A stretch of 20,809 nt of DNA from IMG/VR virus record IMGVR_UViG_3300036857_000387, positions 1-20,809 of that record; one strand, 5' to 3'. Each line of letters opens with the position of its first letter. The first letter of the stretch is position 1. The notes under the pieces were generated by a model, which was given only the letters and a program-made list of their open reading frames with translations, did no database searches and had not been told where the DNA came from. The DNA is from a virus. The position numbers were made by a program, and so were the translations under genes. This document shows, in pieces, positions 3,407 through 11,080 of the stretch.

Positions 3407-4540
3407 GCAGATACCTCATACAATCTCAACGATGCCGAGACCGTCAAGCTCTGGTCCCGGAAGCTCGACCGGGAGGCTCTGAAGCGCACCTACATGAAGC
3501 GCTTCATGGGCGACGGCTCGGACTCGATGATCACCATCAAGAACGAGACTAACAAGAGCGCGGGCGACCGCATCCGCGTGACCCTGCGCAAGCAGATGAA
3601 GGGACGCGGCGTCGTCGGCGACGCCAACCTGGAAGGCAACGAGGAGAGCCTCTCCACGTTCACCCAGGACCTGGTGATCAATCAGCTCCGCCATGCCGGC
3701 CGTTCCGACGGCGCCATGACCGAGCAGCGGGTGACGTTCGACATCCGCAACGAGTGCATGGACGGCCTCGCCGACTGGTGGGCCGAGCGCTGGGACATCT
3801 GGGGCTTCTATCACCTCGCCGGCTTCACGCCGGGCAACACGACGGGGACGGCCAGCTCAGACACCGATGCCACGGGCTCGGAGTACAACGGCCACAACAC
3901 GATCACTGCGCCCACGCGCATCGTGCGGGCTGGCTCCGGGCTGACGGCAGACCAGTCGCTCACGACCTCGAACGTGTTCTCGCTGATCCTCATCGACAAG
4001 GCGATCGAGAATGCGAAGGTGGCCCAGACCGGCACCGGGCGGAACCCGATCCGACCGATCATGGTCGGGGGCAAGCCCTACTTCGTGGTGTTCCTGCACC
4101 CCTACCAGGTGACGGACCTGCGCACCAAGGCCAGCTCGGACACGGCGCACCCGGTGCTCTGGTACGACCTGCAGAAGTCGCGCATCCAGGGCGGGGAGAT
4201 GGACAACGGCATCTTCAACGGCGCACTGGGCGAGTACAATGGCTGCATCCTGCACGAGTCTACGCACGTTCCGAAGGGCGTGAGCAGTTCGACGGGCCTC
4301 GCCTTCGCCAATACCCGCAGGGCCATCCTCTGCGGCGCGCAGGCGGCCGTCGCCGGCTTCGGCATCGGCCACGACAAGTCCAGCTACGACTGGTTCGAGC
4401 AGCGGTTCGACTACGGCAACAAGCTGGGCGTCAAGGCCGGCTGCATCTCGGGCCTGAAGAAATCGACCTATGCCGAGAGCGGAACGGACCATGACTTCGG
4501 CACCGTGGTCATGTCGTCCTACGCCGCGGCTCACAGCTGA
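3404..4540 (+). CDS. Major capsid protein, N4-gp56 family
   Basis: 378 residues. The N-terminal part, with AETVKLWSRKLDREALKRTY followed by KRFMGDGSDSMI, and the central DWWAERWDIWGFYHLAG stretch fit the N4-gp56-type (DUF4043-related) HK97-fold major capsid proteins. Other family-like elements are a basic K-G-R-G segment near residue 65 and a C-terminal half with HPYQVTDLR and a DYGNKLG motif. The protein forms the icosahedral shell. It follows a scaffold-like gene and is followed at once by a small probable decoration protein. The length is typical. The start is fixed because no other start codon is available downstream of the in-frame TGA at 3365; the ribosome binding site is unusual (see the separate entry). 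Confidence 0.88.
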   Translation: MADTSYNLNDAETVKLWSRKLDREALKRTYMKRFMGDGSDSMITIKNETNKSAGDRIRVTLRKQMKGRGVVGDANLEGNEESLSTFTQDLVINQLRHAGRSDGAMTEQRVTFDIRNECMDGLADWWAERWDIWGFYHLAGFTPGNTTGTASSDTDATGSEYNGHNTITAPTRIVRAGSGLTADQSLTTSNVFSLILIDKAIENAKVAQTGTGRNPIRPIMVGGKPYFVVFLHPYQVTDLRTKASSDTAHPVLWYDLQKSRIQGGEMDNGIFNGALGEYNGCILHESTHVPKGVSSSTGLAFANTRRAILCGAQAAVAGFGIGHDKSSYDWFEQRFDYGNKLGVKAGCISGLKKSTYAESGTDHDFGTVVMSSYAAAHS

Positions 4541-4980: not shown

Positions 4981-7218
4981 GTGAGCGGCTATTATCTGTA
5001 TATCGGGGCGGCGCCACTGGCGCCGTCTCCCTACTATGTGCTGCTGGCGACGCCGGCCGCGAGCCATCCCGAGTGCAACCATTCCAAGTCGATGGCTGCC
5101 ACAGTGGAGACACTTTCCCGCGCCGGCATCCAGTTCGATTTCCTGCAGGTGCAGGGCTCCTGCCACGTCGACGACGTGCGCAATGGCATCATCCGCGACT
5201 TCCTGAAGTGGGAACGGCCGGCGAGCGAGGCGCCGCACTGCCGTCATCGGTACACCGATCTGTTCTTCATCGATGCCGACATGGGATGGGACGCCAAGGG
5301 CATTATCGACCTGCTGATGGCGCCTGGCGATATCGTGGCCGGCGTCTACCGGCACAAGAACGATATTGAGACCTATCCATTCGTGGCCGGCCAGTTCGAG
5401 GGGTTAGGCGCCAATGAGGCCAACCTGTTCGAGATGGAGAAGGCGGCGACCGGCTTCATGCGCATCCGCCGCGCCGTGCTGGAGCGGCTGGCCGAGGTCG
5501 AGCGCGCCGGCGGGCTGCGGCAGACGGGCTCGCCCCGCTGCTGGTGGCCGAACCCGCAGGACGAGGAGAAGAATCCCGTCCATCCGGTCGCGCGCATTGT
5601 CGAACGCGGCTGGCCGCGGGAGATGGGCATTCCCGTGGAGGTCCATGCCGGCAACGACTACCAGTCCGGCGACTACGTGTTGTGCCTGAAGGCGCGCGCG
5701 GCCGGCTTCGGCGTGTTCGTCGACCCGGACATGAAGTTCAGCCATGCCGGCAGCAAGGTCTGGGTCGGCCACTTCGGCAACCATCTGCGCACCGAGCAGG
5801 GCGTACTCACGCCATCGTTCGTCGCGGCGGTGGAGGCGTTGAAGACCGGCAAGGCCGAGCCTGAGATCTTCGCGGCGCTGTTCGAGGGCTGGGACATCTT
5901 CGCCGGCCGCAGTCCGCTCGGCAGTCCAATGACGCTGGAGCCGGCTGCGCTTGCCGAGCTGTGGGGGCGCGCACGCGGCGCAATTGCTCCCGTGCTGGAG
6001 ATGGGCTCGGGCCTCACGACCCTGGTGCTGGGGCTGGCGCTGCAGGGCACGGGCCAGGCCGTGCATACGCTGGAGGACAATCTGCCGTCATGGCGCCAGA
6101 CCGCCTCGGCCCTCGATCGGCTCGGCATCAAGAACGTGATCTTGCACTACGCCCCGCTGGTGCCGATTGGCCCGAAGGCCGACGAAGTTGCCTACGGCGA
6201 GGCCGAGATCCCCGATACGTTCGGCCTGGTGCTGGTCGATGGCCCCTACTTCTCGCCGCAACGTCGGACGGCGGTATGGGCCCTGCGCACGAGGATCAGG
6301 GCGGCGACGCTCATCGTCGATGACGTGGGCACGAGCAGCGATCTCATCGAGATGCTGCAGAAGGCCGGCCATGTCGTCGACATCAGGGCCGGCGGCAAGA
6401 AGCGGTGGGCGATCGCGACGCCGACAGCCCTGCAGCGGCCGGCCGCCGACCCCAGGCATACTCTGCCGGGGCAGCTCATCGTCTCGCTCACCTCGCATCC
6501 GCCGCGGTTCTCGATGCTGCGGCAGGCGCTCGACAGCCTGCTCGCGCAGGATATGAAGCCCGACGCCGTGGTGCTCTGGCTCGCCCGCAGCGAGTTCGCG
6601 AACCTGCCGAGCGACATCCTGCGGCTCGACGGACTCACGATCCGGCAGTGCGAGGATCTACGCTCGTACAAGAAGCTGATCCCGGCGCTGCGGGAATATC
6701 CGGGCGCCTTCGTGCTGACGGCCGATGACGACCTGATGTATCCGCGGACATGGGTGCGGAGCTTCGTCGAGGCTTCGCGCTGGCCCGTGAAGGAAATTCT
6801 GCTGCGGCGGGCACGCAAGATGAGCTTCGTTCACGGGCCGGCGCCTTCTGCCTATAATTCCTGGCCCCTCGCCCATGCCCTGCTGGAGCAGAACGCACTC
6901 CCAGCCCTGCCCAATCTGTTCCCCACGTCCTGCCACGGCATGCTGGTGCCGCCGGGCGCCATGTATCAGGCCGTCGCCGACATGGCTGGCGCGCAGGCGC
7001 TGGCGCCCATGAACGACGACATCTGGTGGTACTGGATGGGGCTGCTCGGCGGCTCGACGTTCCGCGTCATCGGCGGCGATCCCATCGAGGACCTGCCGAC
7101 GGGCGCCGACGGGCTCTGGTCGCAGCACAATCGCGACGGCGGCAACGACCGGCAGATCGCGGCGATGATCGAGGCTTACGGCATGCCATGGGGACCGGTG
7201 CGCGAGGCTGCGGAATGA
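4981..7218 (+). CDS. Three-domain enzyme: glycosyltransferase - methyltransferase-like - glycosyltransferase
   Basis: 745 residues from a GTG at 4981, with GAGGAG at 4969-4974. Residues of about 15-300 look like a GT-A glycosyltransferase: FFIDADMGW gives a DxD (Asp98, Asp100) for metal and nucleotide-sugar binding, followed by IVAGVYRHK, a GFMRIRRAVLERL helix and GDYVLCLKARAAGF. Residues of about 310-485 resemble a class I methyltransferase Rossmann fold: VLEMGSGLTT (338-347, motif I), an acidic LED after the next strand, LVLVDGPYF around Asp420 and LIVDD (444-448). Residues of about 498-745 form a second, distinct GT-A-like domain: LIVSLTSHPPRF, SYKKLIPAL, TADDDLMYP (Asp582-584) and NDDIWWYWM. 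That pattern is known from transferases in bacterial surface-polysaccharide loci. The enzyme would act in the cytoplasm. Its acceptor (virion protein, fibre, or host polysaccharide) is unknown. It overlaps the next frame by ATGA. Confidence 0.72.
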   Translation: MSGYYLYIGAAPLAPSPYYVLLATPAASHPECNHSKSMAATVETLSRAGIQFDFLQVQGSCHVDDVRNGIIRDFLKWERPASEAPHCRHRYTDLFFIDADMGWDAKGIIDLLMAPGDIVAGVYRHKNDIETYPFVAGQFEGLGANEANLFEMEKAATGFMRIRRAVLERLAEVERAGGLRQTGSPRCWWPNPQDEEKNPVHPVARIVERGWPREMGIPVEVHAGNDYQSGDYVLCLKARAAGFGVFVDPDMKFSHAGSKVWVGHFGNHLRTEQGVLTPSFVAAVEALKTGKAEPEIFAALFEGWDIFAGRSPLGSPMTLEPAALAELWGRARGAIAPVLEMGSGLTTLVLGLALQGTGQAVHTLEDNLPSWRQTASALDRLGIKNVILHYAPLVPIGPKADEVAYGEAEIPDTFGLVLVDGPYFSPQRRTAVWALRTRIRAATLIVDDVGTSSDLIEMLQKAGHVVDIRAGGKKRWAIATPTALQRPAADPRHTLPGQLIVSLTSHPPRFSMLRQALDSLLAQDMKPDAVVLWLARSEFANLPSDILRLDGLTIRQCEDLRSYKKLIPALREYPGAFVLTADDDLMYPRTWVRSFVEASRWPVKEILLRRARKMSFVHGPAPSAYNSWPLAHALLEQNALPALPNLFPTSCHGMLVPPGAMYQAVADMAGAQALAPMNDDIWWYWMGLLGGSTFRVIGGDPIEDLPTGADGLWSQHNRDGGNDRQIAAMIEAYGMPWGPVREAAE

Positions 7219-8278: not shown

Positions 8279-8496
8279 TGGCCGGCCTCGCCGATGCCTT
8301 CCGGATGATGACGCCCGGCCGGTCCGCGGTGCCTGTCGGCGGGGCGTGGAACGAGCAGGGCGGCTTCTACCATCCGGACGACGTAATGCGCGGGCTGCAG
8401 GTGCTGCGCACCTTGCCGCTGATCCAGAGCGAGGATGGCCGGCAGTACCTGCCATGGTCGCCCTGGTACAGCATCCTGCAGCAGCAGGCGCGCTGA
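8278..8496 (+). CDS. Small 72-residue protein between adaptor and nozzle genes
   Basis: The ATG overlaps the adaptor stop (TGATG) and its own stop overlaps the nozzle ATG (TGATG). The product has a helical start (MAGLADAFRMMTPG), a turn with WNEQGGFYHPDD, and an aromatic end (LPWSPWYSILQQQ). There is no signal peptide or membrane helix. I do not recognise the family. Being locked between two connector genes by stop-start overlaps suggests a small tail or connector component made in coupled amounts. This is inference from position. Confidence 0.6.
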   Translation: MAGLADAFRMMTPGRSAVPVGGAWNEQGGFYHPDDVMRGLQVLRTLPLIQSEDGRQYLPWSPWYSILQQQAR

Positions 8497-9980
8497 TGGC
8501 CGACCCGACCCCTCTCGCCTTTGCCGAGTGGCAGCCCGACCTGAGCGACCGGACCAACCCTGCGGCCGAGGCCAGGGGCGTCATCAGCCAGGCCGGGCAG
8601 TACGCGCCGTTCCCGGACATACAGGACTATGACGCCGATGCCGAGACAGCGGCCGTCTGCGTGGGCGCCAGGGCGGTCTACGACAGCACCAAGGTGCCGC
8701 ACATCTTCATGGGCGACGCCAGCAAGCTCTACGAACTGCAGAGCCGGGCGGCGACGGATGTGTCGAATGCCAGCGGCTACAGCCTCGGCAGCGATGACGG
8801 ATGGCAGTTCGCCCAGTTCGGCGACAACGCGGTCGCGGTCGCCGGCTCCGAGCAGCCGCAGTTCCGCTTCATGGGCACATCGAGCCCGGTCGACTTTGCC
8901 GACATCACCGAGGCGCCGGCCAATGCAACCAGCGTGGCGCGCGTGGGCGATTTCCTGATGATGGGCAAGGATTTCACGGCCCACTGGTCTGCGTTCAACG
9001 ACTTCTCCGAGTGGACGCCCGATGCCACGACGCAGGCCGGTAATCAGGAACTCGATCAGGAGCAGGGCGAGATCCAGGTGCTGATCGGCCTCGACTACGC
9101 GGCCATCTTCCAGGAGCGCGCCATTCGCCGCGCGATCTATGTCGGTCCGCCCGTCATCTTCGACTTCGGCCAGGACTACGTGGAGAAGGCCCGCGGGTGC
9201 ATTGCGCGTAACGGCGCGGCGGCCTATGGGCGGCTGATCTTCTATGTCGCGGATGACGGCTTCTATGTCTTCGACGGCCAGGCCTCGACCCCTATCGGCC
9301 AGGGCAAGGTGGATACCTACTTCACCGGCCGACTCAATTACGCCTACAGGCACAAGATCTGCGTAGGGATCGACGGCATCCGCAAGCTCGCCGTGTTCGG
9401 CTTCCCCGCCGGCTCGTCGCAGCTCATCTCTGAGCTGCTGATTTATTCGATCCGCGACGGGCGCTGGACACACGACGAGATCGACTTGGAGCACCTGTTC
9501 GATACGCCCGCGGAGCCTGAGACCATCGACCTGTCGAGCGGCTTCTGGGACCAGAGCATCGACGACGAGCCAGTGGCCTCGTTCAACATCGATAGCGGCG
9601 TGCTCGATGATCGGCGCCGCCGGCTGGCGGGCGTGCAGAGCTCCACCCATCGTCTGGGGCTGTTCACCGGCAACGCGCGGGCGGCGACGATGGAGACCAA
9701 GGAAAGCGAGTTCTCGCCTGGCCGGCGCGGGCTGGTGACGGAGGTCTGGCCCATGGGCGACTTCCCGGCCGGCTCGGTCTCCGCCTCGATCGGCTACCGC
9801 AAGGCGCTGCCGGGCGAGGCCAAGGTCTATACCTCGCCGGCGCAGATGAACCGGGCCGGCTTCTGCCCGGCTCGCACGGATGCGCGGTTCGGCTCGGTGC
9901 GACTGCAGGTAGGCGCTGGCGCGGCCTGGCGCAGGGCCGAGGGCGTGCATGTGACGGCGGTGCAGACGGGGCAGCGATGA
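8496..9980 (+). CDS. Tail nozzle/hub protein, P22 gp10-like beta-propeller type
   Basis: 494 residues. The repeated beta blocks contain motifs typical of the podovirus nozzle/stabilisation family: VARVGDFLMMGK, a W-x-FNDFSEWTP segment, AAIFQERAIRRAIYVGPP (about 200-220), ARGCIARNG, and FYVADDGFYVFDG followed by a TPIGQGKVD element. In P22, gp10 closes the portal channel and forms the lower tail to which fibres attach. The gene follows the adaptor and precedes the tail fibres, as in related phages. The ATG at 8496 overlaps the previous stop. The in-frame upstream extension to 8346 would run back through the small gene and is not needed. The C-terminal 120 residues look like a separate beta domain. 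Confidence 0.75.
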   Translation: MADPTPLAFAEWQPDLSDRTNPAAEARGVISQAGQYAPFPDIQDYDADAETAAVCVGARAVYDSTKVPHIFMGDASKLYELQSRAATDVSNASGYSLGSDDGWQFAQFGDNAVAVAGSEQPQFRFMGTSSPVDFADITEAPANATSVARVGDFLMMGKDFTAHWSAFNDFSEWTPDATTQAGNQELDQEQGEIQVLIGLDYAAIFQERAIRRAIYVGPPVIFDFGQDYVEKARGCIARNGAAAYGRLIFYVADDGFYVFDGQASTPIGQGKVDTYFTGRLNYAYRHKICVGIDGIRKLAVFGFPAGSSQLISELLIYSIRDGRWTHDEIDLEHLFDTPAEPETIDLSSGFWDQSIDDEPVASFNIDSGVLDDRRRRLAGVQSSTHRLGLFTGNARAATMETKESEFSPGRRGLVTEVWPMGDFPAGSVSASIGYRKALPGEAKVYTSPAQMNRAGFCPARTDARFGSVRLQVGAGAAWRRAEGVHVTAVQTGQR

Positions 9981-10014
9981 CGAGCGCACCGCTGCCCCAT
10001 TGCGCCATCGGCGC

Positions 10015-10114
10015 CCTTGCCCTGCCATGCCGCGCCCGGCCCCGCCGCGGCTCGCCTTGCCATACCTGGCCGCGCCCCGCCAAGCCATGCCCCGCCTCGC
10101 CGGGCCCAGCCAAG
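10015..10114. repeat. Degenerate pentanucleotide array, (CCNNG) x 20
   Basis: Exactly 100 bases divide into 20 consecutive five-base units; 18 of 20 match CCNNG, and the exceptions are GCTCG at 10050 and CCATA at 10060. Units include CCTTG, CCATG, CCGCG, CCCCG and CCAAG. The five-base phase never slips. It fills most of the non-coding gap 9981-10141 between the nozzle and first tail-fibre genes. The array is GC-rich and could form many weak alternative stems. No start codon or open frame on the plus strand uses it convincingly. Function is unknown. Confidence 0.85.
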
Positions 10115-10141
10115 CATCAAGCATAGCAGGAAATCGGAACC

Positions 10142-11080
10142 GTGGCAGAAATAACCGACCTCGATCCCACCGACGCCAATAATACTGCCAGATTCCCGGA
10201 AGGAATGCTGGGCGGCACTATTAACGACAGTGCGCGCGCTCTGGAAGGGATTTTGGCCCGCTGGTTCCGCGATACGAACGGCAGCGTCACGGCGACCGGC
10301 TCGTCTAACGCCTACGCCATTACAAGCACTCGCACAATTAGCGCGCTTGCAAACAATATAATAATGACCTGGACAGCCAATTTCACCAACACCGGCGCGG
10401 CGACGCTGAACCTGAACAGCCTGGGCGCCAAGTCCATCAAGCGCTTCAACGGCTCGGCACTGGCGGCCGGGGACATCATCTCGGGCCAGCCGGTGACGGT
10501 CGTCTACAAGTCTTCGCCTGACCAGTGGTTCATGATGACGGCACCGGCAGCGCTGGTGACGAGCATGTTCGCCGACTTCGCCGAGAACGCCTCGCCGGGC
10601 GATCCGGCGGCGGATACGGGGCGGCTCTACGCGCAGGACGATGGCGCGGGTGTCACCGATCTGCGTTGGCGGGACAGCGCCGGCACCAACTACAGCCTGC
10701 GCAGCGCGACGCAGGCCGAGATGGAGGCTGCCAGTACGACGAAGGTCGTGGTGGCCTCGCGGCAGCACTTCCATCCTGGGCATGTGAAAGCGGCTGGCCG
10801 CGTGAATTCAAGCGGCAGCGTTGTGGGCACAGCCTACAACGTCGCATCCGTAAGCCAGACCGGCACGGGCGTCTATCGCGTGACGCTGACCAACGCCATG
10901 GCGGATACGAATTATTGGGTCGTGGCAAGCGCGGTAACTGATGGCATTCCGGGCAATTCGTGCCTTGTCAGCTGGGCGGTTGTGTCCGCAACGGTCTTTG
11001 ACGTCACGACGAAACGGGCATTCGACGGCGGCGACAAGGATGCGGCCTTCGGCTTCGTCGTATTCGGGGATATGGCCTAG
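10142..11080 (+). CDS. Tail fibre protein
   Basis: 312 residues from a GTG at 10142, with AGGA at 10128-10131 ten bases upstream. The N-terminus (MAEITDLDPTDANNTARFPE, then NDSARALEGILARWFRDTNG) is the virion-anchoring start found in many prophage tail fibres. It is followed by a repeat-type beta segment (TNTGAATLNLNSLGAKSIKRF, YKSSPDQWFMM). A linker (GDPAADTGRLYAQDD) leads to a C-terminal domain from about residue 200, with HPGHVKAAGRVNSSG and a Val/Ala/Thr-rich beta end that is probably the receptor-binding tip. The 5' third is clearly lower in GC than the genes around it (26 of 60 bases in 10321-10380), a sign of modular exchange. Its TAG stop shares the palindrome CTAG with the antisense gene that follows. 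Confidence 0.75.
   Translation: MAEITDLDPTDANNTARFPEGMLGGTINDSARALEGILARWFRDTNGSVTATGSSNAYAITSTRTISALANNIIMTWTANFTNTGAATLNLNSLGAKSIKRFNGSALAAGDIISGQPVTVVYKSSPDQWFMMTAPAALVTSMFADFAENASPGDPAADTGRLYAQDDGAGVTDLRWRDSAGTNYSLRSATQAEMEAASTTKVVVASRQHFHPGHVKAAGRVNSSGSVVGTAYNVASVSQTGTGVYRVTLTNAMADTNYWVVASAVTDGIPGNSCLVSWAVVSATVFDVTTKRAFDGGDKDAAFGFVVFGDMA

Follow-up and report, generated by a model that had tools for sequence, protein, structure and literature searches.

A minus-strand YNNGG array beside a phage tail-fibre gene is very likely a vrRNA gene aimed at rival tail-fibre alleles

We analysed a virus record of 20,809 bases (IMGVR_UViG_3300036857_000387), referred to below as the window. Its genes encode head, tail and lysis proteins of a tailed phage, and the contig is probably a fragment of a larger genome. 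A repeat array lies between a virion structural gene and a tail-fibre gene, and the features at this locus are collected in Table 1.

Table 1. Features at and around the array, with positions in the window.
Feature	Position	Strand	Remark
Upstream virion structural gene (phrog_3287)	8454..9980	+	
Second hairpin of the 3' tail, perfect 9-bp stem GGGGCAGCG/CGCTGCCCC	9968..9998	-	Predicted fold
Segment present in the window lineage only	9981..10141	.	Flanking genes abut in L129, L131 and L144
First small hairpin of the 3' tail, GCGCC-GAT-GGCGC	10002..10014	-	Predicted fold
Putative vrRNA repeat tract, 20 YNNGG units	10015..10114	-	19/20 units fit YNNGG
Putative guide core, units 2-18, matching the tail-fibre family	10025..10109	-	Units 1, 19 and 20 match no allele
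Weak promoter-like CTGCCA-17-TATGCT	10120..10148	-	8/12, TG before second box; sequence reading
Tail-fibre gene (phrog_11355, phrog_3484)	10142..11080	+	
Own tail-fibre site matching the target, codons 17-36, RFPEGMLGGTINDSARALEG	10190..10248	+	25/40 guide bases match

Twenty in-phase pentamers fill the array, in which the constant columns hold C in 19/20, C in 20/20 and G in 19/20 units, and all four bases occur in the two middle columns. Exact CCNNG units numbered 18 of 20, as opposed to 6 at most in shuffles and 4 at the best place on the other strand. The lag-5 match over 100 bases was 65, above the maxima of 50 in 500 local shuffles and 49 in 50 Markov shuffles of the whole window. These values bear out the initial annotation, which had described a phase-perfect CCNNG array and had proposed a five-base autocorrelation and an array search as checks. 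The search found no further array of the same kind in the window beyond 10015-10114 and at least 120 similar stretches elsewhere in IMG/VR.

Read on the minus strand, the array is (YNNGG)20. CCATA at 10060 becomes TATGG, which fits the unit with Y = T, and the sole defective unit is 10050-10054 (CGAGC on the minus strand), where one G has been lost. The informative strand is the minus strand, and the unit is YNNGG. The free dinucleotides, hereafter the guide, read TT TG CC GA GG AT TT GG GC CA AT AA GA GC GG CG GC AT AG AA in the 5' to 3' direction of that strand. Protein coding by the array was considered and rejected, since five-base units leave frames open unless NN is TA, so that open frames are expected. 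An ATG overlapping the stop codon of the upstream gene (ATGA) opens a frame of ~50 codons through the array (9978-10130), which ends just before the likely ribosome-binding site of the fibre gene and may keep translation coupling across the insertion.

The YNNGG unit is the repeat described in a 2026 preprint (bioRxiv 2026.04.26.720920, PMC13142463) for VIPR systems, which are RAMP-based relatives of CRISPR with a gapped code. According to the preprint, vrRNAs are small RNAs of about 100 nt that consist of a YNNGG repeat tract and a structured tail behind it, and they are bound by Vipr, which is classed as an ancestral RAMP. Pairing of the NN dinucleotides with double-stranded DNA is reported to follow NNxNNx..., where the skipped base is usually a codon wobble position, and the one-nucleotide-skip code used below comes from this one preprint (PMC13142463). 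The natural targets that it describes are satellites, prophages and other VIPR loci, and its main text mentions satellites that use vrRNAs of their own against related ones. The characterised type has 9-16 repeats, and array architecture differs among seven types (PMC13142463).

Two hairpins are predicted directly after the tract (z of -4.4 for 9968-10014), consistent with the structured 3' tail of a vrRNA, and the second one overlaps the upstream gene at its 3' end. Among other arrays, stable hairpins (z < -2) were found after the tract in 24% and before it in 10%. The promoter-like sequence in Table 1 ends five bases before the tract and stayed under the threshold of the promoter scan; from its sequence alone, it could be the promoter of the array. 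The 5' flanks of the arrays gave no clear composition peak for a conserved promoter, and no Rfam family matched the window at gathering score. At another locus (L028, ~6934-7170), the sequence before two arrays is like the 3' part of a tRNA (GGTTCGACTCC...), and ARAGORN found no tRNA in this flank.

Since the flanking genes abut in close relatives, the array segment is an insertion in the window lineage. None of 36 relative contigs contained an array, and among 61 fibre relatives it occurred only in one near-identical copy of the window. The DNA relatives of the window in the phage collection were limited to a 50-base piece of the fibre gene in unrelated phages. It had been proposed that relatives lacking any array at the locus would speak against it; they do lack it, and this indicates an insertion in one lineage rather than an unreal array.

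Similar arrays in IMG/VR were collected with a pattern of seven exact GCC triplets at 5-base pitch, which gave at least 120 stretches. Among the matches listed, 132 of 187 merged arrays were intergenic, and in 92 of these 132 the GCC strand was opposite to both flanking genes, so that the transcripts of the flanking genes read (NNGGC)n. In 49 of 50 contigs among the matches listed, all matches were on one strand; a few contigs hold simple repeats. Adjacent identical NN dinucleotides had a frequency of 0.075 compared to 0.070 expected, indicating that the sister arrays are unlike products of slippage. Their commonest deviation was GCC to ACC, which is GGC to GGU on the other strand. Bacterial genomes, searched with an even longer pattern, yielded a few degenerate arrays, most matches being simple repeats.

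The family most frequent beside the arrays was phrog_4652, annotated as of unknown function. It was encoded by 39 of 50 array contigs of at least 20 kb and by none of 14 control genomes, and a locally built profile found it in about 80 of the at least 120 array stretches among the matches listed. Of the 85 loci holding this family among the matches listed, 84 had an array at a distance of at most 1 kb from it, and the nearest array was on the strand opposite phrog_4652 in 106/108 cases; because the loci were selected by their arrays, these linkage figures describe array loci and not all phrog_4652 genes. Furthermore, phrog_4652 was present in 7 of 8 bacterial genomes with degenerate arrays and in neither of two with simple repeats.

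The conserved motifs of phrog_4652 are R-x-R-P...W and a C-terminal G-x-G-D-x-R-P...G-R-F. Its structural model (pLDDT 96.8) resembles Csm3/Cas7 subunits, and in a profile comparison the family hit the solved structure of SUSP1 Vipr (PDB 36pp) with an E value of 7e-42. The family thus combines a predicted RAMP fold with a glycine-rich loop and homology to SUSP1 Vipr, and by this sequence and model comparison phrog_4652 is Vipr. A tblastn search with one phrog_4652 member against named phages gave no match. The window case also offers a route to decoding the targets of unexplained viral GGY/NN arrays.

The window itself contains no vipr gene. In L135, a relative with a 59% identical structural protein and a fibre of the window's family, Vipr is encoded at 3502-4215 of the contig. 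As this relative shares the structural module of the window, the window phage may encode Vipr in the unrecovered part of its genome. In the L135 contig (G085, 3200-4550), vipr lies between long GG[ACT]NN tracts, which are looser than GGY and escaped the GCC pattern. Among array contigs of 20 to 105 kb, some also had no recognised Vipr; Vipr is diverse, and the profile may miss some types. Four such contigs of 25 to 105 kb (L018, L012, L024 and L037) hold either lone guides or divergent vipr types.

Read with a one-nucleotide skip, the guide decodes to TTx TGx CCx GAx GGx ATx TTx GGx GCx CAx ATx AAx GAx GCx GGx CGx GCx ATx AGx AA, that is, the codons [FL][CW]P[DE]G[IM][FL]GA[HQ][IM][NK][DE]AGRA[IM][SR][NK]. 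A similar N-terminus is present in the window's own tail fibre (RFPEGMLGGTINDSARALEG) and, with closer similarity, in those of relatives, e.g. RWPEGMSGGTINNSGRAMEG in L129. The best one-nucleotide-skip match in 646 kb was the fibre site of L129 (28/40), and one of the next-best matches lay at the own site (25/40); skips of 0 and 2 gave up to 25 at scattered places, which is background only. When 61 fibre relatives were added, the four best matches (27-29/40) were at the same codons and in frame, followed by the own site. According to the preprint, vrRNAs address competing elements with this skip, the skipped base falling for the most part on wobble positions, and the fibre match has this form.

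Against 28 distinct fibre alleles, the guide matched a mean of 21.8 and at best 29 of 40 bases; these alleles are mutually related, so the match counts as one strong coincidence and not as 28. None of 20,000 shuffled guides reached 29 (mean 10.9, sd 2.2, best 26), and the best of 494 real 20-unit guides from other phages was 20. Within the core of 34 bases, L347 and L388 each matched 29, L331 28 and L336 27, compared to 25 for the own allele. These four non-self alleles jointly fill all core units but unit 9, and the best alleles leave 5/34 core bases unpaired.

No perfect target of the window guide was found, and exact IMG/VR scans at 20-22 specified bases gave none. Scans at 16 bases gave 4 and 13 stretches, none of which was a whole-guide fibre match. 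The segment WPDGIFGAH in L391/L392 matched 18/18 bases and was rejected as a target, being at about chance level for the scan and failing in units 11-18. Only three weak fibre relatives were found in 385 genomes of the class of an alphaproteobacterial VIPR carrier. An all-against-all search for exact 9-unit targets among the fetched loci yielded too few matches to bear on the code.

We also compared every array in frame with its two adjacent genes only. A p value of 0.01 or less was obtained for 3 of 19 arrays antisense to both neighbours, as opposed to 2 of 267 others. One of the three is the window array beside the tail-fibre gene, and the others belong to L043 (major head protein) and L111 (baseplate wedge subunit); the window prompted the test, so two of the three cases are new.

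L043, L415 and L418 are related phages with differing vrRNA-like arrays at one position next to the major head gene, and each array decodes to another part of this gene. In L043 (1385-1449), the guide core matched 22/22 bases of the head alleles of L417 and L418, compared to 18/22 of its own. L415 (~1797-1895) carries another guide there, which points to a different segment of the major head gene and matched 26/28 bases on L416 and L417, compared to 20/28 on its own allele. The L418 array (1270-1319) is frame-shifted and points at the 3' end of the head gene, with the own allele joint lowest. Among 1000 shuffled guides, none reached the L043 or L415 score and four reached the L418 score, with the core units in the three loci and the placing of shifted units in L415 and L418 chosen by hand. 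In all three, the tract is closed on its vrRNA strand by a hairpin with a T-run, and Vipr was found in none of the L043-family contigs. The L111 array (6167-6226) lies in a baseplate module, and an in-frame match of its guide to the adjacent wedge gene starts from codon 125 (19/24). No alleles from close relatives were found.

The fit of 19/20 minus-strand units to the published vrRNA repeat, the linkage of arrays with Vipr, the in-frame fibre match, the hairpin tail and the replication in the L043 family lead us to regard the array, with considerable confidence, as a vrRNA gene on the minus strand aimed at rival tail-fibre alleles. The array would be transcribed and its RNA loaded into Vipr, a Cas7-like RAMP, for which the GGY triplets would be the scaffold. 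The NN dinucleotides would base-pair with target DNA as NNxNNx..., skipping third positions of codons in the N-terminal segment of the tail-fibre family. Rivals that carry another fibre allele would thereby have this gene bound and repressed by the complex, the own allele being partly mismatched, and Vipr would come from elsewhere in the genome or be supplied in trans. Such a guide likely plays a role in conflict between related phages. The window case also lends support from independent natural data to the one-nucleotide-skip code.

The most serious alternative is that the array is a relic, a vrRNA once directed against a rival's fibre gene and now non-working. One unit is defective, all known alleles are mismatched, the contig has no vipr and the sister array in L418 is visibly frame-shifted. 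However, the other 19 units and the hairpin tail are intact, vipr is present in relatives that share the window's structural module, and the insertion is unlikely to be old because it is missing from an 85%-identical relative. We therefore consider a relic rather unlikely. Regulation of the phage's own fibre gene instead of a rival's is less probable again: the own site lies 76 bases beyond the end of the array and matches 25/40, but the four non-self alleles match better, and in the L043 family the own allele is the worst or joint worst for each guide.

The initial annotation had read the array as a possible recombination site, binding platform or structured 5' leader. Its points on spacing, the constant triplet, diversified N positions (as the sister arrays confirm) and a link to the fibre gene hold. 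The recombination site and a plus-strand leader are not supported. The informative strand is the minus strand, with YNNGG as its unit, and its NN letters form the guide of an RNA by which DNA of the fibre gene would be recognised. A leader or boundary that controls or shuffles the fibre module would suit a position between genes and directly before the fibre gene, and the whole stretch folds stably (z of -3.9 on the minus strand); it leaves the GGY/NN pattern and the Vipr linkage in other phages unexplained and is insufficient for the in-frame match of the NN letters, so that we regard it as very improbable. Ordinary tandem slippage or chance composition can be dismissed, even in a GC-rich genome and with simple five-base repeats occurring in bacteria, as it is refuted by the shuffles; neighbouring NN in sister arrays are also no more alike than chance, and bacterial degenerate arrays, not simple ones, track vipr.

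As a vrRNA, the window array is of a known kind, sharing with VIPR the alternating GGY/NN repeat, the predicted structured 3' tail and a target in competing phages read with a one-nucleotide skip at codon wobble. It differs in having no adjacent vipr gene (the contig is incomplete), in lying antisense to its neighbours in a structural module, in its 20 units (17 in the matching core) as opposed to 9-16 in the characterised type, and in a target that related phages carry as their homologue of the adjacent gene. A guide so placed and so aimed, at non-self alleles of its neighbour gene, is not described in the main text of the preprint (PMC13142463). We lean slightly towards a class of lone vrRNAs that lie antisense within structural operons of phages and are directed against non-self alleles of the adjacent gene, through Vipr from elsewhere or from another phage in the cell. 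Its members would be the guides against the tail fibre (window), the major head protein (L043) and perhaps the baseplate wedge (L111).

If this class is real, such guides, which lie away from vipr genes and are directed against the version of the neighbouring structural gene that rivals carry, would serve sibling phages as a weapon of allele exclusion, in which the own allele is spared as it differs. Their position would suggest that guides arise or travel with the neighbouring gene. Phages may thus carry small guides against rivals' versions of their own building blocks, which makes testable how self and non-self are distinguished with a gapped code and where vrRNA guides originate.

RNA arrays of the TRAP type, (G/U)AGNN, likewise have a triplet and two free bases at 5-nt pitch. 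The window array has another triplet and no TRAP, and its target information lies in the free bases. A literature search on pentamer repeats in phages found nothing. As in class 1 CRISPR effectors (Csm3/Cas7 on crRNA), the array-linked protein has a modelled Csm3-like fold and, according to the preprint, binds guide RNA (PMC13142463). In contrast to these effectors, the VIPR guide is gapped and made of dinucleotides, has no spacer-repeat array, and no cas genes are known in the type.

Two guides in vipr loci (L010:5934-6028 and L055:658-727) have their best in-frame neighbour match in the C-terminal glycine-rich segment of vipr (p of 0.01 and 0.06, respectively). Judged by this match, they look as if aimed at rival vipr genes.
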